Shown: positions 9,934 to 26,006 of the stretch, piece after piece | Numbering within the stretch: position 1 is the stretch's first letter | How the letters are laid out: every line of letters starts with the position of its first letter | Origin: an uncultured Ignavibacteriota bacterium | GTDB taxonomy: Bacteria; Bacteroidota; Ignavibacteria; UBA10030; UBA8401 | DNA: 64,000 nucleotides | Direction: 5' to 3' | Assembly (NCBI GenBank): GCA_903884005.1 | Contig: CAISDA010000083.1 | Location: 1 to 64,000, forward strand | Position numbers and translations under genes: made by a program | The notes under the pieces: model-generated | Told to the model about the DNA's origin: nothing | What the model saw: the letters and a program-made list of their open reading frames with translations, nothing else | Databases searched by the model: none

Positions 9934-11424
9934 ATGACACGACAAGCACAACAGGCTCATCTGGCATTCGATATCGGTGCAACCAGCGGACGCGCGCTCC
10001 TCGGCTCGATTGACGATCAGCGTGTGATCCTCCGGGAAGTCTATCGATTCCCCAATGCAATGGAGACCGTCGACGGCAGCCTGTGCTGGAATTCCGATCG
10101 GCTCTTCGCAGAGATCAAGACCGGGATCTCGGCCGCCGTTGCATCGTGCGGCGGAACGCCTATCAACAGCATCGGCGTGGACACGTGGGGAGTCGATATC
10201 GGACTCCTCGGCGCGGACGGCGCGCTCCTGGCGCAGCCCCTGGCCTATCGCGACCGGTCGACCGACGGAATGATGGATGAAGTCTTCACGCTGTTTCCCC
10301 GCTCCGACATTTATTCGCGGACCGGAATACAGTTTCTCCAGTTCAACACGCTCTTCCAGTTGTATGCGCTCAAAAAATATCACCCTGCCCTTCTCGATCA
10401 GGCGCATGCGCTCGTGTTCATGCCGGACCTCATCAATCACATGCTCTCCGGCCAGATCGCCAATGAGTACACCATCGCGTCCACATCGCAATTTTTGAAC
10501 GCCTCGAACCGCGACTGGGATTGGACGCTCATCGATGCCCTGGACTTTCCGTCGCAGTTGTTCGGGGAAATTGTTCATCCCGGTGCTTCGATCGGACAAA
10601 TTCGCGGCGCAATCGCCGCAGAGACAGGCGCCAACGCATCGATACGCATCCTGACGGTTGCATCGCACGACACGGCTTCGGCCGTTGCCGCGGTCCCTTC
10701 CCTCTCGCAAAATTTCGCATACATCAGTTCCGGCACATGGTCGCTGATGGGCATTGAAGCACACCAGCCCATCATCACCGCCGATACACTGCGATGGAAT
10801 TTCACGAACGAGGGCGGGGTTGAAAACACATTCCGCGTGTTAAAGAATATCGCGGGCATGTGGCTGCTTGAAGAATGCCGCCGCACGTGGTCAGACTCGG
10901 TACCGGCATCCTACGACGAGCTCCTCGCTGCAGCGATGACAGAAGCGCCCTTTGCGCGCCTCATCGACCCGGACGCCCCCGAATTCATGCACCCGGATTC
11001 CATGCCGAAGGCGATTCACGACATGCTCCTGCGCACGGGACAGCCGGCAGCGCACACGTACGGGGCGATTGTCCGATGCATCTTCGAAAGCCTTGCGCTG
11101 AAGTACCGTGCGGTGCTTGAAGAGCTTCTGTGCATTACTCCTCACCCGATCGACATCATACACGTCATCGGCGGAGGTTCGCGCAACGCGCTCTTGTGCC
11201 AATGGACGGCAAATGCATGCGGCCTGCCGGTAGTGGCCGGACCTGCCGAAGCGACCGCCATCGGCAACATCATGATGCAGGCAAAGGCAGCAGGCGCCTT
11301 CGATACGCTCGGCACGATACGGCGGACGATCTTAAATTCAATTTCCCCCGTCACCTATACTCCGCAGGACAGCAGCCGTTGGAACGATGCATTCGGACGC
11401 TATCAGGCTCTCATACACAATTAA
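9934..11424 (+). CDS. rhaB: Rhamnulokinase (FGGY family)
   Basis: A 496-residue FGGY-type sugar kinase. It phosphorylates L-rhamnulose to L-rhamnulose-1-phosphate with ATP. The N-terminal phosphate loop FDIGATSGRALLG, the DTWGVDIGLL block with its catalytic Asp, and the C-terminal ATP site HVIGGGSRNALLCQ are all present, in the spacing of RhaB rather than xylulokinase. It is followed by rhaA 10 bp downstream, so the two form an operon. Its product feeds the aldolases of the microcompartment operon that converges from the other strand. The upstream 160 bp is AT-rich with a CTTTTCGAAAA palindrome near 9885 that could be a regulator site. Confidence 0.9.
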   Translation: MTRQAQQAHLAFDIGATSGRALLGSIDDQRVILREVYRFPNAMETVDGSLCWNSDRLFAEIKTGISAAVASCGGTPINSIGVDTWGVDIGLLGADGALLAQPLAYRDRSTDGMMDEVFTLFPRSDIYSRTGIQFLQFNTLFQLYALKKYHPALLDQAHALVFMPDLINHMLSGQIANEYTIASTSQFLNASNRDWDWTLIDALDFPSQLFGEIVHPGASIGQIRGAIAAETGANASIRILTVASHDTASAVAAVPSLSQNFAYISSGTWSLMGIEAHQPIITADTLRWNFTNEGGVENTFRVLKNIAGMWLLEECRRTWSDSVPASYDELLAAAMTEAPFARLIDPDAPEFMHPDSMPKAIHDMLLRTGQPAAHTYGAIVRCIFESLALKYRAVLEELLCITPHPIDIIHVIGGGSRNALLCQWTANACGLPVVAGPAEATAIGNIMMQAKAAGAFDTLGTIRRTILNSISPVTYTPQDSSRWNDAFGRYQALIHN

Positions 11425-11434
11425 CCGGACTACC

Positions 11435-12706
11435 ATGACACAGATACCCGACGCACACGCTCACTCCTACGCCCTCGCGCGCGAACGCTACGCCGATATC
11501 GGCGTGGACACAGAATCCGCACTCGCAACGCTTTCGTCCGTCTCACTCTCGCTGAACTGCTGGCAGGGCGATGATGTCACAGGCTTCGAAACGATTGACA
11601 GCACCACCGGCGGCGGCATACAAGCCACGGGCAATTTTCCCGGCAAGGCCCGCACACCCGAGGAACTTCGCAGCGATATCACCATGGCGCTCTCGCTCAT
11701 TCCGGGAACGCACAGAGTGAACCTTCACGCGATGTACGGGGAATTTAACGGCGCGCGCGTCGACCGGGACGAGATCTCTGTCGACCATTTCCGCACGTGG
11801 ATCCAGTGGGCCACGGAGAAGCATCTCTATCTGGATTTTAACGCAACGTGTTTCGCCCATCCCATGGCGGACTCGGGCTTCACCTTGAGCAGCAAGGACG
11901 CATCAGTGCGTGCATTCTGGATCCGCCACGTGCAGCGCGTGCGGGAGATCAGCGCCGAGATGGGCCGGCAACTGGGCTCGCCGTGCGTTCACAACCTATG
12001 GATCCCCGACGGATCGAAGGACCAGTGCGTCGACAAATTCGGATACCGTGCACTGCTCAAACAGTCGCTCGATGACATATTTTCCACACCGATGGATAGA
12101 GCCTTCATGAAGGACGCAGTGGAAAGCAAACTCTTCGGCATCGGCAGCGAATCGTTTGTTGTCGGGTCGTACGATTTTTACCTCCCGTATGTGCTCACGA
12201 GGCATCTCATGCCCTGCCTGGACATGGGACACTATCATCCGACGGAATCCGTGGCCGACAAGGTATCGTCGCTCCTGCACTTCGCCGATGAATTGCTCTT
12301 CCATGTCAGCCGGGGAGTCCGATGGGACTCGGACCACGTTGTCATACTCAACGACGATCTGTGCGCATTGACGGACGAGATCGTGCGCGCGCAGGCCCTG
12401 AAGCGCGTGCATTTTGCGCTCGACTTTTTCGATGCGAGCATCAACAGGATAGGCGCGTGGGTGATCGGAACGCGGGCCACGCAGAAGAGCCTCCTGCGCT
12501 CACTGCTGGAGCCGCGGGTTCAGCTGCTGGGGTATGAACAAGCGGATAATAATTTTGCGCGGCTGGCGCTGCTGGAGGAAAACAAGCTCCTCCCCCTGGG
12601 CGCCGTGTGGGACGAATACTGCGAACGGATGGGTGTTCCTCCGGGATCGGCATGGATCCAGTCTGCCCTGAACTACGAACGAACGGTCACATCCAAACGT
12701 TCGTGA
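11435..12706 (+). CDS. rhaA: L-rhamnose isomerase
   Basis: A 423-residue Mn2+-dependent isomerase that converts L-rhamnose to L-rhamnulose. Family landmarks are the N-terminal LNCWQGDDVTGFE, the metal-binding stretch LDMGHYHPTESVADK and the following SWG-like SRGVRWDSDHVV segment. An open frame continues 16 codons upstream into rhaB, but ATG 11435 (MTQIPDAHAHSY) gives the usual length of about 420 residues. It ends 6 bp from the convergent aldolase gene at 12713. Together with rhaB it supplies rhamnulose-1-phosphate to the BMC pathway; no fucose isomerase is present, so rhamnose is the primary substrate. Confidence 0.93.
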   Translation: MTQIPDAHAHSYALARERYADIGVDTESALATLSSVSLSLNCWQGDDVTGFETIDSTTGGGIQATGNFPGKARTPEELRSDITMALSLIPGTHRVNLHAMYGEFNGARVDRDEISVDHFRTWIQWATEKHLYLDFNATCFAHPMADSGFTLSSKDASVRAFWIRHVQRVREISAEMGRQLGSPCVHNLWIPDGSKDQCVDKFGYRALLKQSLDDIFSTPMDRAFMKDAVESKLFGIGSESFVVGSYDFYLPYVLTRHLMPCLDMGHYHPTESVADKVSSLLHFADELLFHVSRGVRWDSDHVVILNDDLCALTDEIVRAQALKRVHFALDFFDASINRIGAWVIGTRATQKSLLRSLLEPRVQLLGYEQADNNFARLALLEENKLLPLGAVWDEYCERMGVPPGSAWIQSALNYERTVTSKRS

Positions 12707-12712
12707 TGCGGC

Positions 12713-14005
12713 CTACAGGTTGAATGCCTTTTCCAATTCGTCGATCTCCGCCGCGCCGATGGGCACGACGGAACCAATGGCTTTTGAATCGATGATCGAT
12801 CGCGCGGTGAACTCCGCAACTTCCAACCGATCGAAACTCTGCAGCAGAGAATTGCCGGTCACGATGATGCAGTTGTTCCTGCATATGACAACCGGCATCG
12901 TGTCCGACACCATGTCCGCAATTGCGGGATAGTCGTCGCCCCCCTTGCCGAATTCCATGCCGAAGGGAAATTTTTGTATCTCCCGGAGCACCAGATAACT
13001 TTCGGGAATCGTGCGCGTGTCGAATGCGGCGTCGCAGACACCGAACGCCAAAATGTTCGGAGGCTGTGCGATCACGATCGAGTTGATCGCACTGTTCTTC
13101 GCGTAGATCTCCTTGTGCAGCGTGACGCTGCTGCTGGGATGCTTTCCCGCTTCCTGCTTTCCGTTCTTGATCACAACGAGATCTTCTTCCGTCAGATATT
13201 TCCTGTCCATGCCGATCGGCGTGATGAGAAAACAGTCGGCGTCAATTCTCGCTGAAAATGTCCCCTCCATGCTCGTCACCAGTTTTTGCGCGTAGCTTCT
13301 GCGCACGAGCGTGATCATTTTTTTTCTGATCTCGTTTTCCTTCGACGAATGCCCTTGAGGTTCGAACTCATCGAGGGTGACCGTCTGGCGCGACAATTCA
13401 AGCTCGTCCTCGCTCAACACACGCACGGTGCCGATGCTGTTTGCTTTGAGCGTCACACGGGCGCAGAGGTCCAGTGTCTCGAGCCTCTGAAACGCCTGCA
13501 GCAGGCCGGCGCCTACGGTGACAATGCCGTGGTTTTCCAGGAGCACCGTATCGTGGCCCGCCGAAAATTTTTCGGCGATCACCTCGCCGAGTTTTTCGCT
13601 GCCGGGAAGGGCGTAGTTCGCATACCCGACCCGCCCGCAGAGTTCTCTCGCCTTCGGAATGATCCTCGTGTCCGGAATTCTTCTCGTGATCGCGAAGGAC
13701 ACAAGCGCGGGCGGGTGCGCGTGGACGATGGCTTTGATATCGTTCCTCGATCGGTAGATTGCCAGATGGAACGGGTATTCCGATGACGGTTCATGGATGC
13801 CGTTGACTCTTCCGTCGGGCAGCACACAGACGATGTCCTCCACCGTCAATGCCCCTTTGTCCACCCCCTTCGGCGTGATCCAGATCGATCCGTCCTCGTC
13901 CAGGATCGAAAGATTTCCTCCGGAGGTGGTGGTCATTCCATTTTCGTAGATCCTGTGGATGATCTCAATAATTTCATCCTTCGGATGCATATACTTAAAG
14001 TTCAT
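12713..14005 (-). CDS. Tandem class II aldolase-fold protein with a degenerate second domain
   Basis: A 430-residue protein made of two class II aldolase/adducin domains. The first (about 1-215) keeps the catalytic Glu context PSSEYPFH, the zinc pair in IVHAHPPA and the third zinc His in LENHGIV. The second (about 225-430) aligns by eye to the same blocks but reads PSSSVTLH, IVIAQPPN and CRNNCII, so the Glu and all three zinc His are lost. One active and one structural half is the natural reading. It is the last gene of the minus-strand BMC run, 57 bp after the LutBA fusion. Likely substrate is rhamnulose-1-phosphate or a related sugar phosphate (inferred). No encapsulation helix is seen. ATG 14005 is preferred over 14053 because of a GAGAG site upstream. 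Confidence 0.85.
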   Translation of the reverse strand: MNFKYMHPKDEIIEIIHRIYENGMTTTSGGNLSILDEDGSIWITPKGVDKGALTVEDIVCVLPDGRVNGIHEPSSEYPFHLAIYRSRNDIKAIVHAHPPALVSFAITRRIPDTRIIPKARELCGRVGYANYALPGSEKLGEVIAEKFSAGHDTVLLENHGIVTVGAGLLQAFQRLETLDLCARVTLKANSIGTVRVLSEDELELSRQTVTLDEFEPQGHSSKENEIRKKMITLVRRSYAQKLVTSMEGTFSARIDADCFLITPIGMDRKYLTEEDLVVIKNGKQEAGKHPSSSVTLHKEIYAKNSAINSIVIAQPPNILAFGVCDAAFDTRTIPESYLVLREIQKFPFGMEFGKGGDDYPAIADMVSDTMPVVICRNNCIIVTGNSLLQSFDRLEVAEFTARSIIDSKAIGSVVPIGAAEIDELEKAFNL

Positions 14006-14062: not shown

Positions 14063-16294
14063 TCATTCACCGGAGCGGATGAGCGTATCGAGCAATTCAA
14101 CCGGCGAAAATATTTTTCTGCCGGCATATTCCGCCCCTATCTGTTCCCTGCACGAGGTCCCGCTCGCAACGATGACGAGCTGCGTTCCCGGAACTTCGGC
14201 CGCGCGGATCTGCCGAACGAGATCGTCGCCGACATTCTTGCTCAGTTCATAATACGCTTTTTTATAGCCGAAGCTCCCCGCCATGCCGCAGCATTCCGCT
14301 TTCGACTGTATCACGGTAAAGCCCAACTGCGTGAAGAGATCGACGGCTGCGGACCCTGCGCCCACCGTTTTCATCTGACAATGACCGTGATAAAAGATCC
14401 GTGTCGCGTTCCTGTCCATGCCGCGCAGCGCCGTGCGGGGATCCCGATGGTGCTGTGACAGGAAGGCATTGAGATATTCGATCGGATCGTACGTGTGCGC
14501 CCGCAATTTTTTGAACAGCGTGTCGTTACATAAAAGCGCCTTATAATCGCTCCGAAAAAGCGCCAGCACGCTCGGTTCAGCCACGATGATATCCGAGCCT
14601 TCATCAATGAACGTCTCAAGATACGCCGCGGTCTTCACTGCTCTGGCCGCCGCCGATTCGACGAGTCCCTGCGATTGTGCGTCCCTTCCTTCGGCCATGG
14701 TTGCGCTGACCGTCGTGGCGATCCCCAGTTTTTCAAAGACACGGACCACCGCCATGCCCACCTGAGGATTGTTGTAATTGGTGTATGCGTCGGCAAAAAG
14801 AACGGCACGGGGCTGCGACATTGAAGCGTCGGCCTGGACACGAGACTTCTTCGAATGCTCGCGGTATTGACGCACCAATGTGCTCCGGCCGAATTCCGGG
14901 ACCGGCCGTCGCTTGTCGAAGCCGATCAGCAGTTCCATCACCGACCTGACGGCCGGGAGAGCGGCGATCAGGTTGGCAACACGGGGAGCCAGCGAAGCAA
15001 CGGCACCGACGATCGAAAAATTTCCGAAGAACATTTTTTGCAGAGACGGTCCCCCGGACAATGTGATGAGCCGTTGTTTGATGGCGGTATTGAGCCTCGG
15101 AATGTCAATGCGGACCGGACAATTGGGAACGCACCTCGAGCATCCGGTGCATAATTCAGCAAACCGTCCCTTCTCAAGCGATCCGCTGGTTCCGATGGTC
15201 CACGCTGCGCCGATGCCGCCGGTGTAACACTCGCCGCCGAATGCATGCCCGCCCACCGCCTGAAAATTGGCGCACACATTCATGCACGCGCTGCAGCGGA
15301 TGCAGTAGAGAGCCTCTTTCAATTCCGTATCGGCGCGCATTGTCATGCGTCCGTTGTCCAGAAGAACAAGGTGGAACTCCCTGCGCGTGTCGCTTCGCCC
15401 GTTCAGATTGAGCACGGGGACCAACAGCGGCGGTTCCAGAATATTCGTATACGATGTCAGCGGCTGTCCCGTTCCGCTTGCCGCCAGGAGTTCGATGAAG
15501 GTTCCCAGATCTTTTTTCGACGGGATGATTTTTTCGATGCCGGCGATGGCAATATGAACGGCGGGCAGCTGCGTCGTGAGCCGGATGTTCCCCTCGCTTT
15601 CAACGAGCAGGAGGCAGCCTTCGTCGGCAGCAATGAGATTCGCGCCGCTGATGCCAACATCGGCCGACAGAAATTTTTGCCGCAGTATCAGACGCGCAAA
15701 TTCCGTCAGATCTTCGCCGGTGTCCAGCGGCAGGCTCGTATCGAAATGTTCCTTAAAGAGCGCCGTGATGCGCTGCCGGCTTCGGTGTATGGCAGGCGCC
15801 ACGATGTGCGACGGCTGTTCGTTCGAGATCTGGAGTATGAATTCTGCAAGGTCGGTTTCGGCCACTTCGATGCCAGCGGCTTCAAGCGCATGGTTGAGTT
15901 CGATCTCCTCAGACGTGATCGACTTGGCTTTCACAACAAGCTTTGCCTCGTGCATCCGGCAAACATTCGTGATGTAGTTGTTCGCATCGTCTTTGGTCGC
16001 AGCAATAAAGACCTTTCCTCCCCGAGCCTCGACCGCCTTCGTCAGCGTCGCGATGAGTTCGGGCAGGCGTTCAATGGAGTCTTCCTTAATGGCGCGCGCG
16101 CGGCTTTTTAATTCCTCGTAATCGGGTATGGCGGACAGGGCCGTGTATCTGTTGGCGTTGAACGTCTGCGTATTGAGACGCAGCGCTTCATTTTCCACGG
16201 CCAGCGCCATCGCGATCGCCTTCGTGAGATTTTCCTTCGCCGATTTATTGGCAACGTCGCGGGGATGAATGTGGACTTCGTCAGATCCGGTCAT
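14063..16294 (-). CDS. LutB-LutA-like fusion: LUD domain, 2[4Fe-4S] ferredoxin and CCG-domain lactate oxidation protein
   Basis: A 743-residue fusion. Residues 1 to about 310 form a LUD domain as in LutB (with ADVGISGANLIAADEG). A ferredoxin segment follows with CIRCSACMNVC and CTGCSRCVPNCP. The last 250 residues are a CCG-type domain as in LutA/GlpC: the second motif is clear (YHGHC and ECCGMAGSFGY), while the first CCG position is degenerate. Lut proteins oxidise L-lactate to pyruvate, passing electrons to the quinone pool. The gene overlaps lutC by 14 bp, so the two are translationally coupled. In this operon it would use lactate formed from lactaldehyde by the BMC route, returning carbon to pyruvate. 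The fusion replaces the separate lutA and lutB genes. Confidence 0.85.
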   Translation of the reverse strand: MTGSDEVHIHPRDVANKSAKENLTKAIAMALAVENEALRLNTQTFNANRYTALSAIPDYEELKSRARAIKEDSIERLPELIATLTKAVEARGGKVFIAATKDDANNYITNVCRMHEAKLVVKAKSITSEEIELNHALEAAGIEVAETDLAEFILQISNEQPSHIVAPAIHRSRQRITALFKEHFDTSLPLDTGEDLTEFARLILRQKFLSADVGISGANLIAADEGCLLLVESEGNIRLTTQLPAVHIAIAGIEKIIPSKKDLGTFIELLAASGTGQPLTSYTNILEPPLLVPVLNLNGRSDTRREFHLVLLDNGRMTMRADTELKEALYCIRCSACMNVCANFQAVGGHAFGGECYTGGIGAAWTIGTSGSLEKGRFAELCTGCSRCVPNCPVRIDIPRLNTAIKQRLITLSGGPSLQKMFFGNFSIVGAVASLAPRVANLIAALPAVRSVMELLIGFDKRRPVPEFGRSTLVRQYREHSKKSRVQADASMSQPRAVLFADAYTNYNNPQVGMAVVRVFEKLGIATTVSATMAEGRDAQSQGLVESAAARAVKTAAYLETFIDEGSDIIVAEPSVLALFRSDYKALLCNDTLFKKLRAHTYDPIEYLNAFLSQHHRDPRTALRGMDRNATRIFYHGHCQMKTVGAGSAAVDLFTQLGFTVIQSKAECCGMAGSFGYKKAYYELSKNVGDDLVRQIRAAEVPGTQLVIVASGTSCREQIGAEYAGRKIFSPVELLDTLIRSGE

Positions 16295-16841
16295 GAGAGT
16301 GCTCCACTACAATAATGTGTACGGCGGCGGGGCCGTGTACGCCGCGCACAAGCGGCCCCATATCCGCCGTTGCGCTGGGCCCGGTGATGAATGTAAAGCT
16401 CCGATGGAGGCCCGTTCCGGAATGTATCTCCGTCGAAAAGACATCGCTCGGCCGCGCGACGATCGCCGCACTGTCCACAAGCACGATGTGCTTGCGCGTC
16501 AGCATGCTCATCGGACTCGTGTAATTCGCCGACATGGCTACGCATACGGAGCCCGTTGAGGCGATCGCACAGAACGCATCGGTGATGCCCGTCGGCACGC
16601 GTGAGAATTGTTCCCTGGTCGGGCGTATGATCACTTTGGGGTTTTTCAGAAATACGCGGAGCAATGCGGGGTCAAGATCGTCGGGTTCCGACAGCAGGAC
16701 GTGCTCGTCGCCGGCGGTGGCCCGTTCGAGAGCCGCATTGAGAGCCTCGGCGTCTGCAGTAACAACTTCGACCGTTGCCACGGCCTTGACGGCAGAGGCG
16801 GTGAATTGTTTGAGTAATTCGGTGTGTGATGGCGCGGACAT
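16281..16841 (-). CDS. lutC: LUD-domain lactate utilisation protein C
   Basis: A 186-residue LUD-domain protein, the third component of the LutABC-type lactate oxidation system. The C-terminal block TGSVCVAMSANYTSP, then VLVDSAAIV, then FITGPSATADM and RGVHGP are the usual LutC landmarks. An open frame extends 35 codons upstream into a repeat element, but ATG 16841 (MSAPSHTELLKQF) matches the family N-terminus. The 3' end overlaps the LutBA fusion gene by 14 bp. A 220-bp gap containing an intergenic repeat separates it from the acetate-kinase-like gene upstream, so a separate promoter for the lut genes is possible. Confidence 0.85.
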   Translation of the reverse strand: MSAPSHTELLKQFTASAVKAVATVEVVTADAEALNAALERATAGDEHVLLSEPDDLDPALLRVFLKNPKVIIRPTREQFSRVPTGITDAFCAIASTGSVCVAMSANYTSPMSMLTRKHIVLVDSAAIVARPSDVFSTEIHSGTGLHRSFTFITGPSATADMGPLVRGVHGPAAVHIIVVEHSHDRI

Positions 16842-16990: not shown

Positions 16991-17062
16991 TTTTTGTGAG
17001 TTACCAGGGCGTCAGGCGGTGACGATGGACAGCACATGATGCCGCTCAACAATGATACTAAC

Positions 17063-18235
17063 TTAATTCGCGCTTTCCAACAGGCGCTGCACTTCGCCGG
17101 CGACGATGGATTCTTCGTCCGTCGGAATGATCGCCGCCAGTATTCGTGAGCTCTCGTGTGTAATCAATCCCTGTGCGGGGTTGGCAGTGTTTCGTTCCTC
17201 GTCCAAAACGATCCCGAGGTTTTCCATATTCTGCAATATCTCTTTGCGCAGCTTCGGCGAGTACTGTCCGGCTCCGGCAGTGAAGACAATGCATTCGGCT
17301 CCGTTGAGTATGGCATGATATTCCCCGATATATCGTTTCACACCGTATGCGAATGTCGTGAATGCAAGGCCGGCCCTTCGGTCTCCTTTGGCCATGCTCT
17401 CTTCGATGTCCCTGAAATCCCCGCTGGTCCCCGAAATGCCGTACAGTCCGCTCTTCGACATTAACATGGTTCTGGCCTCGGCGATGGAGAGATGCTCCTT
17501 TTCCATCAGGAATAACAGCGCGAACGAATCCAGGTCACCGACCCTTTTCGCATTCAACAATCCGCTTTGCGGACTCATGCCCATCGAGGTATCGATGGAG
17601 TTGCCGTCCCGGATCGCGCAGACAGACGAACTGCCTCCGAGGTGGCAGGAGATCACCCTACGCACCCCAAAGAGTTCCTGCGCCTTCATGCCGATATAGC
17701 GGTGCGAGGCGCCGTGGAATCCGTATTTGCGGATCCCGTGCTTCTCGACATATTCGTAGGGAATGCCGTATAAATATGCCTCGGGGGGAATGTCCGCATG
17801 GAACGCAGTTTCGAACAATCCCACCAGCGGTGTGCTGCTCAGAAGTTTCTTAAACACGGAGATGGCGACGAGATAGACGTCGGTATGGACGGGCGCCAGA
17901 GATCGGTACTCCTCCATTGCTGCGAGAACATCGTCCGTGAGTTCAACGCAGCCGGTGACTCCTTTGGCATGAACGGTCTTGAAGCCGACCGCGGCAATAT
18001 CCGTGATCGCGTAGCGTTGCTGAAGCGTTTCGAGCGTGAGCGTGACGGCCGCGCTGTAATCGGGGATCTCGCACCGTATGGATTTCTTTTCCCCTCCCAG
18101 AAACCGCCACGACACATCACCCTCTTTCTCTCCGATCCGTTCGACGGCAGCCTGGAACAGTACGGTCCTGTCGGCCATGTCATAGAGTTTGCACTTGTAT
18201 GAAGTACTGCCGGGATTTGCAATGAGTATGTTCAT
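17063..18235 (-). CDS. Divergent acetate/propionate kinase family enzyme (probable lactyl-phosphate kinase)
   Basis: A 390-residue ASKHA-fold acid kinase. The N-terminal NPGSTSYKCKLY, the YGFHGASHRY His block, DTSMGMSP and the C-terminal ITHESSR all mark the AckA family. Several residues that bind acetyl-phosphate or nucleotide in AckA differ: the HRVVHGG segment reads FKTVHAKG (Arg to Lys), FDTAFH reads FETAFH (Asp to Glu), HLGNG reads HLGGS and GGIGEN reads AGAGQY. The family reaction is acyl-P + ADP to acid + ATP. Here the expected substrate is lactyl-phosphate from PduL (inferred from the operon). Start 18235 (MNILIANPGS) fits the family better than the upstream ATG at 18268. Confidence 0.85.
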   Translation of the reverse strand: MNILIANPGSTSYKCKLYDMADRTVLFQAAVERIGEKEGDVSWRFLGGEKKSIRCEIPDYSAAVTLTLETLQQRYAITDIAAVGFKTVHAKGVTGCVELTDDVLAAMEEYRSLAPVHTDVYLVAISVFKKLLSSTPLVGLFETAFHADIPPEAYLYGIPYEYVEKHGIRKYGFHGASHRYIGMKAQELFGVRRVISCHLGGSSSVCAIRDGNSIDTSMGMSPQSGLLNAKRVGDLDSFALLFLMEKEHLSIAEARTMLMSKSGLYGISGTSGDFRDIEESMAKGDRRAGLAFTTFAYGVKRYIGEYHAILNGAECIVFTAGAGQYSPKLRKEILQNMENLGIVLDEERNTANPAQGLITHESSRILAAIIPTDEESIVAGEVQRLLESAN

Positions 18236-18327: not shown

Positions 18328-19128
18328 TTATTTTTTCGCGAGCTTGGCAATCACGCGTTCCGTGATGTCGCGTATGGTCTTTTCCGATACGGCGCCCGAT
18401 GCGGGCATGGCCGAAGGAGCAGCACCGGCCGGCGAGTCGCTGCTCGGCATCGGCGTTGCATCGCATGTGGCAATTCTGCCGGGAATATTGAATTGACTGC
18501 GGAGTTCCATCAGCCTGTCTCGTTCATACGCCGGCAGCACGTTCATGTTGCCGAGTTGTATGGCTTTCCAGACGATACTTGCAGTGTGTTCGAGCGTCTC
18601 CATTTTGTGGTAGGCGTTCAACAGATCGCTTCCCAGCGTCAGCGCGCCGTGGTTTTCAAGCAGCAGCGCGTCCGAATTTTTAATGTGCTCGCGTATGGCA
18701 TCCGGTATCTCCATCGTCGACGGGAGCCCGTATTTTGCCGTGGGTACGGCGCCGATCACAATGATCGCCTCGGGCAGCACGCATTTGTTGAGCGGTATGC
18801 CCGCCACGGCAAAACTCGTCGCATACGGCGGATGCGCGTGAACCACGGCGTTCACATCGGGACGCTCCTTGTACACTTCGAAGTGCATCTTTGCTTCGCT
18901 CGACGGGCGGTATTTCGGATTGCCAGAGATCACCTTCCCGTTGATGTCCACCTTGATGATCATATCGGTGTCCATGAAGCCCTTGCTCATGCCGGTGGGC
19001 GTTGTGAGAATCTCCCTGTCGTTCAGTTTCACGGTGATGTTTCCGTCATTAGAGGCGACGTAGCCCCGGAGCCAGATGCGCTTTCCGATTTCGACGATCA
19101 GTTTTTTTAATTCCCATTCGCTTGTCAT
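18328..19128 (-). CDS. Class II aldolase with C-terminal encapsulation helix (rhamnulose/fuculose-1-phosphate aldolase)
   Basis: A 266-residue zinc aldolase that should cleave rhamnulose-1-phosphate (or fuculose-1-phosphate) to DHAP and L-lactaldehyde. The catalytic Glu context PSSEAKMH, zinc pair VVHAHPPY and third ligand LENHGAL are intact. The aldolase domain ends near residue 220. A Pro/Ser/Ala-rich linker (about 222-246) then leads to an amphipathic terminal helix, VSEKTIRDITERVIAKLAKK. That linker-plus-helix is the hallmark of a BMC encapsulation peptide, so the enzyme is probably packed inside the shell. It sits between the BMC-T gene (19 bp upstream) and the acid kinase gene. Confidence 0.9.
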   Translation of the reverse strand: MTSEWELKKLIVEIGKRIWLRGYVASNDGNITVKLNDREILTTPTGMSKGFMDTDMIIKVDINGKVISGNPKYRPSSEAKMHFEVYKERPDVNAVVHAHPPYATSFAVAGIPLNKCVLPEAIIVIGAVPTAKYGLPSTMEIPDAIREHIKNSDALLLENHGALTLGSDLLNAYHKMETLEHTASIVWKAIQLGNMNVLPAYERDRLMELRSQFNIPGRIATCDATPMPSSDSPAGAAPSAMPASGAVSEKTIRDITERVIAKLAKK

Positions 19129-19147: not shown

Positions 19148-19717
19148 TTATAATAATTCCAGTAAAACGTCCGGATGCGGATTTTTGAGTATGACGAAAC
19201 CGGCCAGCATGCCGTCCTGCTTGATCGATTCTATCGCTTTATGTGAAGCGGCCTCCAGCGCACCGACACTGCCGGTGAAGACGGCAAATCCTTTCCCGCC
19301 CACAGCCATTGCGATATGGATGCGCAGGATCTCCACATCCGCCTCTTTCGCAGCCACATCCGCCGCTTTAATGGCCGACACGACTGAAAATGTCTCGATG
19401 ATCAACGCGGCGTCGATCTTCTTCGCGTTGTAGATCTGGAGGGGCGTCGTGCCGGCAATTGCCGGGAACACGCGGGGATCGACATTGGGGATCGTTGTGC
19501 AATTGACAAGGGCAAACCCGCCGACGTCCTGTGCAATGCCCATGGCGCATTCGACATCGGCAACGCCGCCGCGCACCATGATAAAATATTTTCCGGAACA
19601 GATCGTCCGCGCGATCAGCTTCTCCACATTCGCCGATTTCAGGATTTCGTCCTGCACGTGAAATCCTTTATAGATACTCGCCAACTCTATGATCCCAATT
19701 GCATTCCGGTTGTCCAT
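19148..19717 (-). CDS. BMC-T shell protein, PduT-like, with cluster-binding Cys
   Basis: A 189-residue tandem-BMC-domain shell protein that forms pseudo-hexameric trimers. Domain 1 (about 5-85) starts AIGIIELASIYKG; domain 2 (about 92-180) contains AALIIETFSVVSAIKAAD. The segment TICSGK around Cys40 lines up with the TICPGK segment of PduT, whose Cys holds a [4Fe-4S] cluster on the three-fold axis. Length also matches PduT (about 184) rather than PduB or EutL. The gene upstream is PduS-like, the established partner type of PduT, so the pair may carry electrons through the shell (inferred). Confidence 0.9.
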   Translation of the reverse strand: MDNRNAIGIIELASIYKGFHVQDEILKSANVEKLIARTICSGKYFIMVRGGVADVECAMGIAQDVGGFALVNCTTIPNVDPRVFPAIAGTTPLQIYNAKKIDAALIIETFSVVSAIKAADVAAKEADVEILRIHIAMAVGGKGFAVFTGSVGALEAASHKAIESIKQDGMLAGFVILKNPHPDVLLELL

Positions 19718-19796: not shown

Positions 19797-21092
19797 TCAT
19801 CGCTCGATGACAATTTCCTTCATACTCACCGTCGTGACGGTGCCGTCGATCGACGCATGCATCACCGAGGAGGTGCTCCCTCCGGCGCGCGCGATGAGAT
19901 CGTATTTTTTCACCGCATCGCCCGGCGACACAATTGCGATCGCCGGCGCGCCGATGTGCTCTGCGAGCGGCACCCGCACCGATGCCGGACGGATATTCAA
20001 CTCTTTCAGCGGACCGTCGGCATCGTACCTGGCAACATCCAGCCGCTGCATGAGCTTCGATGTCGGCACTTTCCTATAATCGATCATAGGATGCACGCTC
20101 TGCTGCACGCCGTTCCATTGAAGGTGCTGCTCGCGGAACATCCGTTTTTCCATGACCGTGGCGCCCCGCGGGTCCAGCCCCTCGGGACAGGCATACATTG
20201 TGCACAGATTGCATTCGCAGCACGAAAAATTTCCCGGAAAGAGCATCGGCATGTCTTCGCGAGTGAACATGCGGTTGCGCATGGCGGTTTCGGGCCGCAC
20301 GGGCTGTCCAAGCAGGTACCGCGGACAGAGTTCCGTGCAGAAGGAACATTGGTCGCATCCCGCCTTCGCGATCCTATCCGTGTCGTGGTCCGTTGCGAAC
20401 CGCCTGTACATCGTGATACAGTGGTGATCATCGGGCAGCACGATCAGTGCGCCGGTCCGCTTCGACACGACCGTATGAAGATCTGTCACCAGCGCGCCCA
20501 TCATCAGGCCGCCGGCGCGGACCGCGAACTGCGGCACGGTGATAGTAAAATGAGACAGCACTTCCTCGTACGTTGTTCCCACCGGCACCATGATCGTTGC
20601 AGGTTCTTTCACGGCGCCTGCAACAGCGATACATTTTTCGACCACGGGTTTCCCCGCGCCGATATTATAGAGTGTCTCGACATTCTGCACAAGGCATCCC
20701 ACCGAAATCGGCAGCGCACCGGGCTGCACGATACGTCCTGTGGTCATATAGATAAGCGTGACTTCGTCGCCCGCGGGATACACATCCTCGATCGGCATCA
20801 CCGTGACCGATTGTGGAACTTTCGAACGCAGCAGTGCGATTTCCTCATGGTGCTTATCTTTAATACCGATGATGCCGTGAGACGCCCCCGTGATGTCCAT
20901 GACAGTCCGGAACCCATCGAGCACCGTATCGGCCCGATGCAGCAGCAATTGCATATCCTTATGAAGCAGGGGTTCGCACTCGGCCGCATTCATAATGATC
21001 GTATCGGGATTCGATTTCAGCTTCACATGAGCCGGAAACCCTGCGCCTCCCGAACCGATCACTCCCAGTGCTTCGATATCATTAATTGTCAT
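19797..21092 (-). CDS. PduS-like / RnfC-like flavo-iron-sulfur electron-transfer protein
   Basis: A 431-residue protein with a glycine-rich N-terminal nucleotide/flavin loop (GVIGSGGAGFPAHVK), an RnfC/NuoF-like core with an AECEPLLHKD block, an SLBB segment, two [4Fe-4S] motifs (CDQCSFCTELCP and CCECNLCTMYACP), and a C-terminal barrel-sandwich part ending EIVIER. This is the domain order of PduS, known as a cobalamin reductase in propanediol BMCs. No B12 enzyme is encoded here, so a role in reoxidising NADH generated by the encapsulated aldehyde dehydrogenase is more plausible (inferred). It sits 79 bp upstream of the PduT-like gene in the operon. Confidence 0.9.
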   Translation of the reverse strand: MTINDIEALGVIGSGGAGFPAHVKLKSNPDTIIMNAAECEPLLHKDMQLLLHRADTVLDGFRTVMDITGASHGIIGIKDKHHEEIALLRSKVPQSVTVMPIEDVYPAGDEVTLIYMTTGRIVQPGALPISVGCLVQNVETLYNIGAGKPVVEKCIAVAGAVKEPATIMVPVGTTYEEVLSHFTITVPQFAVRAGGLMMGALVTDLHTVVSKRTGALIVLPDDHHCITMYRRFATDHDTDRIAKAGCDQCSFCTELCPRYLLGQPVRPETAMRNRMFTREDMPMLFPGNFSCCECNLCTMYACPEGLDPRGATVMEKRMFREQHLQWNGVQQSVHPMIDYRKVPTSKLMQRLDVARYDADGPLKELNIRPASVRVPLAEHIGAPAIAIVSPGDAVKKYDLIARAGGSTSSVMHASIDGTVTTVSMKEIVIER

Positions 21093-21107: not shown

Positions 21108-21386
21108 TCATTGTGTGTCCCGGTAATCGATGGTGTCCACGATCGCCATGATGAGCGTGCGGATCGGAGCTTTGTCCAGATTGAACACCGACTGGGCCGT
21201 GCCCGGCGCGCCTCCACAGACAACAATATCGCCCACACTCGCACCGACGTAATCCATCGCCGCCGATTCCTCGCCGGCAGGGACGCCGTCGGGATAAATC
21301 GACTGGACAAGGAACACCGATTTCGCGTCGTAGGCGCGATGCTTCTGTGTAGCGGTAACTTTTTTAATGACTCGTGCTAAATACAT
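21108..21386 (-). CDS. BMC-P vertex protein (EutN/CcmL family), copy 1
   Basis: A 92-residue single-domain pentamer-forming protein that caps the vertices of the polyhedral shell. Family blocks MYLARVIKKVTATQKH, then GASVGDIVVCGGAPG, then IMAIVDTIDY follow the EutN/CcmL pattern. It is the most divergent of the four BMC-P proteins here, with a long central segment (SVFLVQSIYPDGVPAG). It starts 15 bp upstream of the PduS-like gene. Confidence 0.9.
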   Translation of the reverse strand: MYLARVIKKVTATQKHRAYDAKSVFLVQSIYPDGVPAGEESAAMDYVGASVGDIVVCGGAPGTAQSVFNLDKAPIRTLIMAIVDTIDYRDTQ

Positions 21387-21448
21387 AAGGATGAAGAGTT
21401 ATTACCGTTATACATCACGTTCGTTCCAGCACATGTGCCGATCCCATC

Positions 21449-21733
21449 TTATGGCCGTGGAATCACGTGTGTGATCTGCACATCGTCGATGAGCGCCATG
21501 ATCACCGCATCGACCGGAGCATTCTTCGTCTCTTCCGTCATCCGTGCAGACGAACCGTACGAGATGAGCACAAAGCTTCCTTCGCCTGCTCCGACGGCGT
21601 CGACGGCCACATGGTACGACTGAAGGAGAGTGCCCTCATGGTCCGCTTCCCTGCACAAGAGAAGTTTTTTTCCGTTGAGGTTCACATCCTTCACAGTCGA
21701 TACGACCGTTCCGATCACTTTTCCAAAGATCAT
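21449..21733 (-). CDS. BMC-P vertex protein, copy 2
   Basis: A 94-residue EutN/CcmL protein. It has the full consensus: GKVIGTVVSTVKD at the start, LLLCREADHEG, AVDAVGAGEGSFVLISYGSSAR in the middle and AVIMALIDDVQ near the end. It lies 11 bp after the first BMC-H gene, and is one of four pentamer proteins in the locus. Confidence 0.92.
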   Translation of the reverse strand: MIFGKVIGTVVSTVKDVNLNGKKLLLCREADHEGTLLQSYHVAVDAVGAGEGSFVLISYGSSARMTEETKNAPVDAVIMALIDDVQITHVIPRP

Positions 21734-21744
21734 GAGAATTCGCT

Positions 21745-22020
21745 TTATCGGTTGAATGATGCGTCGAGTTCCTCGACAGGACGTGGAATCACCACTTGTG
21801 ACACGACCTCGCCGACACGCGTGGCGGCCTCCACTGCTGCTTCGATCGCCGATCGCACGGCGGCGACATCGCCTTCAACGGCGAACGACACGTAGCCGCT
21901 GCCGATCTGCCGCCATTCAACGAGCTCGACGCTTGCCGATTTGAGTGCGGCATCGGCCCCCTGCACAAGAGCGGAGAAGCCTTTCGTCTCGAGTATACCA
22001 ATTGCATTTCTATTTGCCAT
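21745..22020 (-). CDS. BMC-H hexameric shell protein, copy 1
   Basis: A 91-residue single BMC domain. It opens NAIGILETKGFSALVQGADAALKSA, and the pore loop reads QIGSG, close to PduA (KIGSG). Of three in-frame ATGs, 22020 is chosen: an AAGGA site lies about 9 bases upstream, and the protein then begins MANRNAIG as in the family. A 132-bp leader with a GC hairpin separates it from the preceding BMC-H gene, the longest gap inside the shell gene block. Likely a major facet protein. Confidence 0.92.
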   Translation of the reverse strand: MANRNAIGILETKGFSALVQGADAALKSASVELVEWRQIGSGYVSFAVEGDVAAVRSAIEAAVEAATRVGEVVSQVVIPRPVEELDASFNR

Positions 22021-22050
22021 TGTAGTCATTCCTTTTTTTTCACGTTTGAG

Positions 22051-22068
22051 CGCAGCCACTGTGCTGCG
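22051..22068 (-). other. GC-rich hairpin upstream of BMC-H copy 1
   Basis: CGCAGC and GCTGCG flank a 6-base loop in the 132-bp gap between two BMC-H genes. No T-run follows on the minus strand, so it is not a terminator. It may be a processing or stabilising stem for the downstream shell mRNA (inferred). Confidence 0.35.
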
Positions 22069-22152
22069 GCGCATTGTTGATGGTCCGTGCAGCTCACGTT
22101 TATTTTCCCTCAAGCGCACGCTTCGCGACGGGAGCACACACCTCCCGGCGCA

Positions 22153-22443
22153 TTACTGTGGTGATGTCATCGCCCCGATGGGGAATTTGGCAATAAGCTT
22201 ATCGGACGGACGCGCAATGACGAGCTGCGCCTCAACGCTGCCCACTCGCTTTGCCGCCTGCACGCCCGCTTCAACGGCAGCATTCACCGCCGCAACATCG
22301 CCGCGAATAATGATCGCGATCCTGCCCCCGCCTATTTTGATCCATCGTCCCAATGTGACATTCGCCGATTTGACAGCCGCGTCGGCAGCCTGCATGGCCG
22401 GAGTGAATCCGGTCGTCTCTATGATTCCTAATGCGTCGACCAT
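22153..22443 (-). CDS. BMC-H hexameric shell protein, copy 2
   Basis: A 96-residue BMC domain (DALGIIETTGFTPAMQAADAAVKSA). The pore loop is KIGGG followed by Arg, which differs from copies 1 and 3, so this hexamer's pore chemistry should differ. A short C-terminal tail ends GAMTSPQ. It starts 2 bp from the stop of copy 3, pointing to coupled translation. Confidence 0.92.
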   Translation of the reverse strand: MVDALGIIETTGFTPAMQAADAAVKSANVTLGRWIKIGGGRIAIIIRGDVAAVNAAVEAGVQAAKRVGSVEAQLVIARPSDKLIAKFPIGAMTSPQ

Positions 22444-22445
22444 TG

Positions 22446-22733
22446 TTATTTCGCCTCTCTTTCTATGCCGATCAGTTGAAAAACTTCCTCGTGCGCCGCG
22501 GGAATGATGTTCACACTCACAAGTTCGCCCACTTTCCCTGCGGCCTCCGCACCGGCCTCGACAGACGAGCGCACCGCCCCGACTTCACCCCGTACCAGGA
22601 CCGTGACGTAAGCGCCGCCGATCTCGACGCGCTTCACGAATTCGACATTCGCCGTTTTCAGCATCGCGTCCAGGGCGTTGATCGCCCCGGTATTTCCGCG
22701 CGTTTCTACAAATCCTAATGCAACTCCAGGCAT
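22446..22733 (-). CDS. BMC-H hexameric shell protein, copy 3
   Basis: A 95-residue BMC domain (ALGFVETRGNTGAINALDAMLKTA). The pore loop is EIGGA, acidic next to the pore. ATG 22733 is chosen because GGAGGT lies 7 bases upstream and the protein then begins MPGVALGF; the longer frame to 22787 overlaps the upstream BMC-P stop. A 12-residue C-terminal tail (FQLIGIEREAK) extends beyond the domain. Confidence 0.92.
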   Translation of the reverse strand: MPGVALGFVETRGNTGAINALDAMLKTANVEFVKRVEIGGAYVTVLVRGEVGAVRSSVEAGAEAAGKVGELVSVNIIPAAHEEVFQLIGIEREAK

Positions 22734-22783
22734 TGATGACCTCCGTTTAGTTAGTTTGAGTTGACCAGCTTTTATTTTCTGTT

Positions 22784-23047
22784 TCATGATAGTTCATCCA
22801 CTAATGCTACGATGCTCGCATTGACCGGTGCGTATCCCGACTCGAATGCCTGGACGGCATCGGTGCTCGTCACGTACATGATAAGGTCGCCCGAGCCCCC
22901 GATGTGTTGAGGATCGGCGGCCACAAGCACATTGCCGATCGGTGCGCCATCGCCCGCAACAGGCTGCACGATCGCCAGCCGGCAGGCGGCAAGTTCTTTC
23001 ACTTTTTTGGAAGACCAGACGGTCCCGATGATAACACCCAGTTTCAT
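22784..23047 (-). CDS. BMC-P vertex protein, copy 3
   Basis: An 87-residue EutN/CcmL protein: GVIIGTVWSSKKVKEL, AIVQPVAGDGAPIG, then GSGDLIMYVTSTDA and ASIVALVDEL. It lies 43 bp downstream of the aldehyde dehydrogenase gene and upstream of the three BMC-H genes, within the shell block. Confidence 0.92.
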   Translation of the reverse strand: MKLGVIIGTVWSSKKVKELAACRLAIVQPVAGDGAPIGNVLVAADPQHIGGSGDLIMYVTSTDAVQAFESGYAPVNASIVALVDELS

Positions 23048-23090: not shown

Positions 23091-24518
23091 TTACGAGAAC
23101 CGAAGAGCGCCGTGCGTCATGATCCTGCGTTTGCGGACAAAATTCAGGGGCGTGCAGATGCCTTCGCCCGTCGGCGTGGCGATCGTGTGTGAAAAATACC
23201 CTTCCCCCAGGTCCCCTCCGTCGCCGCGGAGCGTGCCCCCGTTGATGGCATGCACATCGCAGTCGAGCACGCGCGTAAAGCGCGTGACGCGCGTAATGTC
23301 CTGCGAGAAGATGCTGGCGGTATGCTTGAAGCCGTGCTCCGCTTTAAGGGATGCCTGAATGCCGTCCTCGAAATCGCGCACCTTGATGACCGGGATGCAG
23401 CATGTCATCTGTTCGGCGACGACCCAGGGATCGGTCCGTTCAGTCTGGCCGAAGAGCAGCGGAACCGATGCGGGCACATCGATGCCGATCGCTTTTGCCA
23501 GCACCTGAGCACTGCGGCCGACATAGTCGCGCCCGATGAGCCAATGCTTGCCCGAGAGCTGCAGCGCCACACCGCCCAGCTGCTTCATTTGTGCCGGTGT
23601 GAGTTTGACGTTTCCCGCTTTTGCCATTTCATCCATGAAGCGGTCGAAGACGGATTCAACAACGAAGATTTCCTTTTCCGCGATGCACAGGATGTTGTTG
23701 TCGTAACTCGCGCTTTGCGTGATCTCGCGCGCCGCCAATGCCAGGTCCGCAGTCTCGTCCACCAGCACCGGAGGATTTCCCGGGCCTGCCGCGATGACCT
23801 TCTTGGGAAATGTCATGGCAAGGTCCACCATGAACGGCCCGCCCGTCACGGACAGAAGCTCGATGTGCTTGTGCCCGAATAATATTTTTGCGGTGTCAAT
23901 GGTCGGCTCCGCCACGCACGTGACAAGATTCGGGGGCGCACTCGCCTCGATCATGTACTTGTTTGCCAGTTGTATCACGCGCGCGTTCACCTTTTTTGCC
24001 GAGGGATGAGGATTAAATGCGATCGTGTTCCCGCCGGCGAGTTGAATGATGATATTGTTGATCATCGTCGGTCCCGGATGCGTGCTCGGCGTGATGTTGC
24101 CGATCACGCCGAACGGCGCGTATTCATCGATCGCGAGGCCGTTTTTGCCGGACCAGGCCTTCGGCTGTAAATATTCCACGCCGGGACTGTGCGTGGCGGC
24201 ATTCACGAATTTTGCGATCTTATGATCGACCCTCCCCATTCCGGTCTCTTCCACGGTCATGCGGGCGAGTTCTTCCTTATGATCGAGCGCCATCTGGCGC
24301 ACGGCATCGGTGATTTTTTTCCGGCACTGTTTGCTGCGTTCCTTATACAAGAGGAATGCAGTGTGTGCGGCTTCCACGGCGTCATTCATATCGTCGAAGA
24401 CGCCCAAGTCGCCTTTGGATGTGCCGCGCGCCAATGTGTCCGTACCGGCTGTCTGTGCGAGCACGTTCTGCACGATACTCTGCACCAGTTCTTTGAGTTC
24501 AACCTCGTTTATTTCCAC
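23091..24518 (-). CDS. PduP-like CoA-acylating aldehyde dehydrogenase with N-terminal encapsulation helix
   Basis: A 475-residue CoA-dependent aldehyde dehydrogenase of the PduP/EutE type. It should oxidise L-lactaldehyde to lactyl-CoA with NAD+ (substrate inferred from the operon). The first 20 residues (EINEVELKELVQSIVQNVLA) form an amphipathic helix followed by a Gly/Thr linker, the classical N-terminal encapsulation peptide. The catalytic Cys is Cys278 in SYDNNILCIAEK; the nucleotide region ITPSTHPGP is also present. NADH made inside the shell must be reoxidised, and the PduS/PduT pair or an unseen dehydrogenase could do this. Confidence 0.92.
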   Translation of the reverse strand: MEINEVELKELVQSIVQNVLAQTAGTDTLARGTSKGDLGVFDDMNDAVEAAHTAFLLYKERSKQCRKKITDAVRQMALDHKEELARMTVEETGMGRVDHKIAKFVNAATHSPGVEYLQPKAWSGKNGLAIDEYAPFGVIGNITPSTHPGPTMINNIIIQLAGGNTIAFNPHPSAKKVNARVIQLANKYMIEASAPPNLVTCVAEPTIDTAKILFGHKHIELLSVTGGPFMVDLAMTFPKKVIAAGPGNPPVLVDETADLALAAREITQSASYDNNILCIAEKEIFVVESVFDRFMDEMAKAGNVKLTPAQMKQLGGVALQLSGKHWLIGRDYVGRSAQVLAKAIGIDVPASVPLLFGQTERTDPWVVAEQMTCCIPVIKVRDFEDGIQASLKAEHGFKHTASIFSQDITRVTRFTRVLDCDVHAINGGTLRGDGGDLGEGYFSHTIATPTGEGICTPLNFVRKRRIMTHGALRFS

Positions 24519-24657: not shown

Positions 24658-24966
24658 TCAGAGTGCGCTCGAGACGATCAGCGATCTTTTTTTGATGATG
24701 TCGTTTGCGCCCGGCGTGAAGATCGTGCCCTTCGGCACGACAATTTCCTGGACCGCATCATCGAGCTGCTGCAGCCGGAACTCGGTGAGCACCGGTGTCT
24801 TAAATTCCTTCAAGTCTATGACCACTCGATTGCTGATGCGGCCGTTGAAAGGCTTCGGCTTCGTTGCGTCATTCACTGCTGCGTCTCCGTCTAATCCCCG
24901 CCGGCGGAGTTCGGCAAGCACTTCGCGGACGATGATCTCGATCAACTGTTCACGTGATATGGTCAC
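24658..24966 (-). CDS. Small BMC-operon protein of unknown function, 102 aa
   Basis: The frame begins with a GTG at 24966 that overlaps the stop of the preceding BMC-P gene by 4 bp (GTGA), so it is translationally coupled. The protein starts MTISREQLIEIIVREVLAEL, an amphipathic helix like an encapsulation peptide, then a charged linker (RRRGLDGDAAVND), then a compact C-terminal region with IVVPKGTIFTPGANDIIKK. That last motif loosely recalls the N-terminal segment of EutQ-type proteins (a hydrophobic pair, then a TP-x-A motif). No enzyme family is recognised. Position between vertex protein and aldehyde dehydrogenase suggests a cargo, scaffold or assembly role (inferred). Confidence 0.75.
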   Translation of the reverse strand: MTISREQLIEIIVREVLAELRRRGLDGDAAVNDATKPKPFNGRISNRVVIDLKEFKTPVLTEFRLQQLDDAVQEIVVPKGTIFTPGANDIIKKRSLIVSSAL

Positions 24967-25274
24967 TCGCGGCCGCCCATGATTGTTCGTTTGCTGTAGA
25001 GTTCGCTTTTGCCGGCTGAGACCGTATCCACAATTCCGATGATGGTGTGATCGACGCACGCGTGTTTCGTCGCCGCCGTGCCTCTGGCGGAAGAGGACGA
25101 AACGCACAGGACCACATCGCCGGGACCCGCACTCACCGTATCGGCGCATGCGGCTGTTACCTTCGTCTCCTGGAGATCCGCATTCAGGAATCGCACGACG
25201 AGAATTTTAAGCGCATCCATGTTGGGTTCTTTCCTCGATGCGACGACAGTACCGATCACCGTTCCTAGTTTCAT
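24963..25274 (-). CDS. BMC-P vertex protein, copy 4
   Basis: A 103-residue EutN/CcmL protein: MKLGTVIGTVVASRKEP, ILVVRFLNADLQET, DTVSAGPGDVVLCVSSSSAR and HTIIGIVDTV. A basic C-terminal tail (LYSKRTIMGGRE) extends past the domain. It sits 9 bp from the PduL gene, and its stop overlaps the start of the small unknown gene. Confidence 0.92.
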   Translation of the reverse strand: MKLGTVIGTVVASRKEPNMDALKILVVRFLNADLQETKVTAACADTVSAGPGDVVLCVSSSSARGTAATKHACVDHTIIGIVDTVSAGKSELYSKRTIMGGRE

Positions 25275-25283
25275 AACGCCACG

Positions 25284-26006
25284 TTACATCCTTTCCAGAA
25301 ATTCCACGTCGATGTCGTTCCTGATGTTCGCCGCATTCGCGTCATCGGTGTCCAAATGGATCTGCAGTTTCCATGAATCGTTCGTGCGTATGAGCACATG
25401 CTCGAATATCGTCCCCTTCTCTCCTCCCACACGCACGCGGCAGTAGTCGCCGTTCTTCACGCCGAAGCGCTCGGCGTCCTTCGTGGTCATGTGTATGTGG
25501 CGGTTGGCGACGATCGCACAGCGGTCCAGATAGAGCGAACTCTTCGGCCCGACGAGTGTGAGCGGCGCAGCCTTGCCGAGCGAACCCGAATTGGCTACGG
25601 GCGGGTCAATGCCGAGAAAGATCGCATCGGTGAGTGAGACTTCCACCTGATCGTATGTTCTCAACGGTCCCAGGATTCTCACGTTGGGTATGCTCCGCAG
25701 TTTCGGGCCGACGATCGTGAGCACATGCTGCGAGGCGAACTCTCCCGGCTGAAACAACGGCCGCATCACTTCAAATGCGGTGTCTTCGCCGAAAAGTCTG
25801 TGAAATGTCGCCGGGGTGAGATGAATATGGCGATTCGAGACTCCCACCGGGATCGCAGCGTACAACGGATACGCGACCGGCTGCCTGCGGGAAGTGCCCG
25901 CATCACGAAGCATGGCAGTGATCTCTTCGGTGATGAGGTCAACCAATGCATCATGCGTCAACGAATGGTGCTGCCGTGTACAGCCGCAAAGCTCGGGTGT
26001 GCTCAA
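25284..26006 (-). CDS. pduL: PduL-type phosphotransacylase
   Basis: A 240-residue PduL-family phosphate acyltransferase that exchanges CoA for phosphate on acyl-CoA, recycling CoA inside the BMC. Both duplicated metal-binding motifs are present: VSNRHIHLT (His60, His62) and VANRHIHMT near residue 165. Before the catalytic part, residues 18-36 (HDALVDLITEEITAMLRDA) form an amphipathic helix with a Ser/Arg linker, consistent with an encapsulation peptide. Substrate here is probably lactyl-CoA from the PduP-like enzyme (inferred). It is the first structural gene after the DeoR regulator, 59 bp downstream. Confidence 0.92.
   Translation of the reverse strand: MSTPELCGCTRQHHSLTHDALVDLITEEITAMLRDAGTSRRQPVAYPLYAAIPVGVSNRHIHLTPATFHRLFGEDTAFEVMRPLFQPGEFASQHVLTIVGPKLRSIPNVRILGPLRTYDQVEVSLTDAIFLGIDPPVANSGSLGKAAPLTLVGPKSSLYLDRCAIVANRHIHMTTKDAERFGVKNGDYCRVRVGGEKGTIFEHVLIRTNDSWKLQIHLDTDDANAANIRNDIDVEFLERM

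Follow-up and report, generated by a model that had tools for sequence, protein, structure and literature searches.

The enzymes closest to those discussed here oxidize lactate with a common set of LUD, ferredoxin, and CCG domains, which in LutABC/LldEFG systems is spread over three proteins. In Desulfovibrio vulgaris, LldGH (DVU3032-3033) consists of a small subunit containing LUD only and a large subunit combining LUD, ferredoxin, and CCG domains, and when DVU3032-3033 is deleted, growth is slowed specifically on L-lactate (PMC4481167, in part). The haloarchaeal enzyme LudBC of Haloferax volcanii (HVO_1692/HVO_1693) is likewise encoded by two genes, with a large subunit of about 730 amino acids (LudB, 733 aa); rhamnose is converted to pyruvate and lactate in this organism, and deletion of LudBC impairs growth on rhamnose (PMC8305020, in part). 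A route from rhamnose through lactate to pyruvate has also been proposed for rha regulons that contain RhaEW together with lldEFG/lldD, and RhaEW, a bifunctional aldolase, is described in the same source as yielding L-lactate and DHAP in vitro (PMC3870299, in part).

Aldolase-type BMC loci provide the other point of reference. PVM and PVM-like BMC loci share a class II aldolase, an aldehyde dehydrogenase (AldDH), PduL, a kinase, a DeoR regulator, and BMC-H/P shell genes, and PVM BMCs have been drawn as ending in L-lactate (PMC8857213, in part). In the literature examined, the output of aldolase-type BMCs (lactate, propanediol, or both) and the rebalancing of NAD are inferred rather than settled. 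The question is testable, in that Melioribacter roseus is listed as having a PVM-like BMC (PMC4207490) and grows on rhamnose (PMC3534657).

The window analyzed here, a stretch of 64,000 nucleotides from an uncultured Ignavibacteriota bacterium (contig CAISDA010000083.1, assembly GCA_903884005.1), contains a pair of Lut genes in an aldolase-type BMC operon near rhaA and rhaB. The operon lies on the minus strand. Read in its own direction, it comprises a DeoR-family regulator gene (26066–26887), a relative of which (375 bits) stands beside RhaEW in another locus, L074; a PduL phosphotransacylase gene (25284–26006; Pfam PTAC, 7.3e-66); a third BMC-P gene (24963–25274; 42 bits to BMC-P2), in an order kept in relatives; an acylating aldehyde dehydrogenase gene (23091–24518; NF011927, 551.1 bits against a cut-off of 403), predicted to convert lactaldehyde to lactyl-CoA; two BMC-P and three BMC-H shell genes (21108–22787) and a gene for a PduS/RnfC-like NADH-oxidizing Fe-S flavoprotein (19797–21092), all assigned by profile matches; a PduT-like BMC-T shell gene (19148–19717), in which the cysteine of CSGKY matches the published PduT Fe-S motif (PMC6325248); a class II aldolase gene of the fuculose/rhamnulose-1-P type (18328–19128) with intact HAHPP and ENHG motifs; and an acetate/propionate-family kinase gene (17063–18235; TIGR00016, 338.3 bits against a cut-off of 293.4), predicted to convert lactyl-phosphate, its putative substrate, to lactate with formation of ATP. 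Beyond the kinase come lutC (16281–16841), a large gene referred to below as the fusion (14063–16294), and, downstream of the latter, a two-domain class II aldolase gene (12713–14002, in an ORF open to 14053). The rhaA (11387–12706) and rhaB (9934–11424) genes lie on the plus strand and are convergent with the operon. Both Lut ORFs and their neighbors, as well as their embedding in a BMC operon between an acid-kinase-like gene and a tandem aldolase, are thus as given in the preliminary description, on the evidence of gene order and domains.

The set by which PVM-like BMCs are recognized (class II aldolase, AldDH, PduL, and shell genes) is present, and none of the scanned operon proteins contains an alcohol dehydrogenase domain or the lactate/malate dehydrogenase domain by which a PVM BMC proper is recognized. 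The BMC aldolase ends in a linker and helix resembling an encapsulation peptide (about 18331–18390), a feature lacking in the FucA proteins of FucI/RhaEW loci, and AldDH begins with an encapsulation-like helix. Two peculiarities of the operon may be recorded. In the second domain of the two-domain aldolase, which was seen in none of the related loci apart from the window (28 loci compared), IAQPP and RNNC replace the metal-site motifs HAHPP and ENHG, as in a pseudo-enzyme domain. The third BMC-P gene is masked by a mechanically called 163-aa ORF (24658–25149); in relatives, this place is taken by a BMC-P gene and, after it, an ORF of some 100 aa. A gap of 221 bases separates the kinase gene from lutC, and promoter-like matches occur near 17052–17080 (six in the region in total, 2.5 expected), so lutC and the fusion may form a transcription unit of their own.

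The fusion is an ORF of 743 aa, predicted to encode the LudB/LdhH-like large subunit of an NAD-independent L-lactate dehydrogenase. It overlaps lutC by 14 bases. LutC (LutC/LudC), the LUD-only subunit, has 186 aa from an ATG at 16841; its ORF is open to 16946, and the start at 16841 better fits the 176–201 aa of most relatives. A LUD domain occurs in both the small subunit (Pfam, 5e-18) and the large one (residues 83–288; Pfam, 1.4e-38). In the fusion, it is followed by a two-[4Fe-4S] ferredoxin domain (Fer4_8 dicluster, residues 328–396; Pfam, 8.5e-8), whose clusters are accounted for by eight cysteines (C331, 334, 337, and 341; C382, 385, 388, and 392), and by a CCG domain (residues 647–718) at 20.2 bits, just below the Pfam cut-off of 20.6. 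The top NCBIfam model is that of Desulfovibrio-type LdhH (NF045670), at a score of 456.6 bits that lies below the equivalog threshold of 800. No match was found when the fusion sequence was searched against the PDB. Foldseek searches with its AlphaFold model gave LutB and LutA of 9a6l as best matches (LutA as chain A, target TM 0.75) and also matched HdrB; because the model is middling (mean pLDDT 70, with the ferredoxin region below 50), these fold matches are taken as support only.

In a quick tree that carries a long-branch warning, the Ignavibacteria and haloarchaeal proteins form a LudB branch apart from standalone LutB with a support of 100, and plasmid-borne haloarchaeal relatives share 46% identity with the fusion over 95–98% coverage. 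The fusion and LutC are predicted to be the two subunits of an L-lactate dehydrogenase that works without flavin or NAD and belongs to the LudBC/LldGH kind. The fusion was first described as unusual, which holds only in part, as its architecture has an NCBI model (LdhH) and published precedents in LldGH and LudBC.

The large subunit retains one complete CCG motif set (CCG2; C639, C668, C669, and C715), whereas the motif positions of the preceding one (CCG1, about residues 497–590) lack any cysteine. While this contrast had been noticed before, its description as degradation, in the sense of decay, does not stand. The CCG1 cysteines are missing from all 26 aligned family members (L050 and L051, with broken frames, are outside the alignment and tree), in which the eight ferredoxin and four CCG2 cysteines are invariant, and likewise from three of three haloarchaeal relatives; they are kept in a standalone LutA of a related genome (L094). 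Because the loss is fixed in all relatives, haloarchaea included, it is a family trait. That the cysteine-free CCG1 marks a decaying or non-functional fusion is therefore scarcely credible, all the more so as the haloarchaeal proteins belong to a kind with a genetic phenotype, and this explanation was dropped. As the predicted fold still matches LutA, CCG1 looks like a retained fold that has shed its cluster.

Related loci were collected by one scan of genome contigs and by class- and phylum-wide searches, giving 28 once duplicates, identified by contigs of the same length, had been removed. The lutC gene adjoins the fusion in 27, the remaining locus starting at a contig end, and rhaA or rhaB lies within the stretch in 26, the exceptions being L045, where the contig ends, and L053, a fucose locus. 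A front end with BMC shell genes is found in seven loci (the window, L039, L044, L045, L052, L078, and L088), and three more, in which the kinase or aldolase is cut by a contig end (L046, L050, and L055), were counted as possible BMC loci. RhaEW without shell genes occupies this position in 11 loci, four of which also contain FucI; L053 carries a fucose diketo-type set; and six loci whose contigs end were left unclassed (L040, L043, L048, L051, L054, and L086). Shell genes and RhaEW occur together in none of the 28. The pair is also carried by MAGs named M. roseus (L042 and L045) and by a 3.3-Mb genome (G220). In L053 (8587–18562), from another class of the phylum, the fusion accompanies FucP, an MR_MLE enzyme, two SDRs, and an FAA hydrolase, an arrangement resembling the non-phosphorylating fucose route, which we take to end in pyruvate and L-lactate. 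Three unlike front ends (BMC, RhaEW, and the L053 set) would thus each be expected to yield L-lactate. A separate peculiarity is found in L051 (1719–4739), where rhamnulokinase is fused to a corrinoid-activation-like (AcsV-like) domain in one open frame of 1007 aa.

The preliminary description had named, as evidence that would count against it, fusion homologues lying mostly outside BMC loci with no link to rhamnose. Fusions outside BMC loci are indeed common (11 RhaEW loci against 7–10 BMC loci), but the link to rhamnose is nearly universal. Among 20 standalone LutB loci picked from the best-scoring hits, a control that is not a random sample, shell genes were found in none, rhaB above 100 bits in one (L098), and RhaEW-like genes above 300 bits in five (L097, L098, L106, L108, and L110). 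By this control, LUD genes other than the fusion also have a link to rhamnose, and what sets the fusion apart is its BMC link; lactate oxidation beside rhamnose genes appears to be a wider habit, in agreement with the presence of lldEFG and lldD in rha regulons (PMC3870299, in part).

Gene content, gene order, motifs, and an exchange of front ends around rhaB-lutC-fusion can be read directly from these loci. L039 (BMC) and L074 (RhaEW) come from genomes placed in one genus (G563 and G578, respectively). Their DNA aligns over 4,441 bases at 86% identity, spanning rhaB-lutC-fusion, and is not alignable upstream of rhaB; a search of G578 for PF00936 at E 1e-8 found nothing. The fusions of L039 and L074 are sister rows with high support in the fusion tree, throughout which BMC and RhaEW loci are intermixed, with at least four changes. 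Given this intermixing, in a quick tree with several weak forks, no direction of exchange is claimed. The swap around an unchanged lactate dehydrogenase constitutes independent comparative evidence for free L-lactate as the output: since the same rhaB-lutC-fusion block follows either BMC or RhaEW, the BMC product is most likely L-lactate, which would then be oxidized to pyruvate.

Co-occurrence of the fusion with BMC aldolases, a check suggested in the preliminary description, was borne out when 391 genomes of the class were sampled. Of these, 19 contain the fusion and 14 the BMC aldolase, with 10 genomes shared (Fisher p 4e-12, uncorrected for phylogeny). Full-length RhaEW occurs in one of the 10 fusion genomes with the BMC aldolase and in eight of the nine without it (p 0.001), G456 and G399 being the odd ones in this split. 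Nine of the 14 BMC-aldolase genomes have the pair in the same locus or at its broken end (G000, G576, G220, G419, G554, G563, and G572, along with G383 and G677 across contig ends), two are undecidable (G635 and G089), and in three (G508, G525, and G456) the BMC locus lacks the pair, which is therefore not obligatory for the BMC. The aldolase BMC loci of G508 and G525 (L130 and L131) stop after the kinase, and in G456 the pair is carried by two RhaEW loci elsewhere. G508, G525, and G635 each have RhaEW elsewhere and one single-LUD gene; in G508 and G525, where RhaEW lies on another contig, organelle and soluble enzyme perhaps serve different sugars.

The route that these genes suggest is deduced from sequence in each of its enzymatic steps, as are the BMC product, the location, and the electron acceptor. 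RhaA and RhaB would convert rhamnose to rhamnulose-1-P, which the BMC aldolase would cleave to DHAP and L-lactaldehyde; lactaldehyde would then pass through lactyl-CoA and lactyl-P to L-lactate in the AldDH, PduL, and kinase steps, with a gain of one ATP; and LutC and the fusion would oxidize L-lactate to pyruvate in the cytosol, as the last step of L-rhamnose breakdown. A respiratory acceptor, perhaps quinone or a ferredoxin-like one, would receive the electrons by way of the ferredoxin clusters and the single CCG cluster left. We consider it quite probable that the pair is the exit route of the BMC rhamnose pathway through L-lactate oxidation. This reading, put forward in the preliminary description, is strengthened by comparison: rhaA or rhaB is a nearly constant companion, the front ends are expected to yield lactate, and no LUD domain was found in the window's genome outside lutC and the fusion; the novelty then ascribed to the fusion falls away. 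The L-lactate permease beside two of three inspected haloarchaeal relatives and the deletion phenotypes of LudBC and DVU3032-3033 also count in its favor. A cytosolic location is favored by the absence of an encapsulation peptide from both proteins, whose N- and C-termini do not differ between BMC and RhaEW loci. The idea that the fusion carries a tag for BMC targeting was dropped, as the same N-terminus occurs in BMC-free loci. Untagged BMC cargo does exist (PMC6325248).

Were the pair instead a general module for utilization of external L-lactate, placed in a sugar locus by chance, it would resemble the LutABC systems that serve external lactate elsewhere in bacteria (PMC3924224 and PMC4481167) and some haloarchaeal relatives, whose neighbors include a lactate permease instead of genes for sugar use (an L-lactate permease is adjacent in two of the three inspected). 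The window's genome, however, has no PF02652 (LctP-type) lactate permease, 26 of 28 loci include rhaA or rhaB, and the pair stays with rhaB through the change of front end, so that we find chance placement improbable and suppose that the lactate oxidized by the pair is made inside the cell. Still less credit can be given to a different 2-hydroxy acid as substrate, or to lactyl-CoA or lactyl-phosphate acted on inside the BMC. The substrate of a LUD enzyme is not readable from sequence, and the pair could belong to the untagged cargo; yet the same pair, with the same termini, accompanies RhaEW, which yields free L-lactate without CoA (PMC3870299, in part), making such a substrate very improbable.

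A different division of labor, in which the chief activity of the BMC is dismutation of lactaldehyde, giving 1,2-propanediol and lactate, and the pair oxidizes the lactate half only, would be in keeping with the dismutation proposed for PVM BMCs, in which an alcohol dehydrogenase role is predicted (PMC4207490), and one Fe-ADH-family gene, a weak match (36.4 bits), does lie elsewhere in the genome. We nevertheless judge it unlikely, given the lack of alcohol and lactate/malate dehydrogenase domains among the scanned operon proteins and the alternative that PduS and the PduT-like BMC-T with its CSGKY motif may offer for unloading NADH. This outlet is not general, because genes for both proteins are absent from the stretches of three Melioribacter-type BMC loci (L045, L052, and L088). 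Returning to the exit route proper, one may entertain, more tentatively, a fully oxidative BMC in which lactaldehyde is not dismutated, NADH formed inside is discharged through PduS and a PduT-like Fe-S pore, and lactate exits for oxidation by LudBC; this extension is rather less likely than not. If it is true, both electron streams would enter the same respiratory chain, and all six carbons of rhamnose would end up in DHAP and pyruvate, none being diverted into propanediol.

Set beside known systems, the locus is predicted to combine an aldolase-type BMC with a lactate dehydrogenase of its own, of the LudBC type; the kind of enzyme and the idea of a path from rhamnose through lactate to pyruvate were already known. 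A lactate dehydrogenase in a BMC operon, or a BMC/RhaEW exchange around one, was not found in the literature searched. Compared with PVM loci, the window adds the Lut pair, PduS, and a PduT-like BMC-T, and lacks a detectable lactate/malate dehydrogenase in the operon. The rha regulons with RhaEW differ in having no BMC and belong to Actinomycetales and Rhodobacterales (PMC3870299, in part). LldGH, compared here through its description and the LdhH model, sits in a lactate/PFOR operon, whereas the window's pair sits in a sugar locus. LudBC is archaeal and has no BMC, and its likeness to the pair rests on the haloarchaeal plasmid relatives rather than on the sequence of HVO_1692. In three-gene LutABC systems, LutA and LutB are separate proteins; in the window, they correspond to one 743-aa protein in a genome that has no other LUD gene besides its lutC partner.
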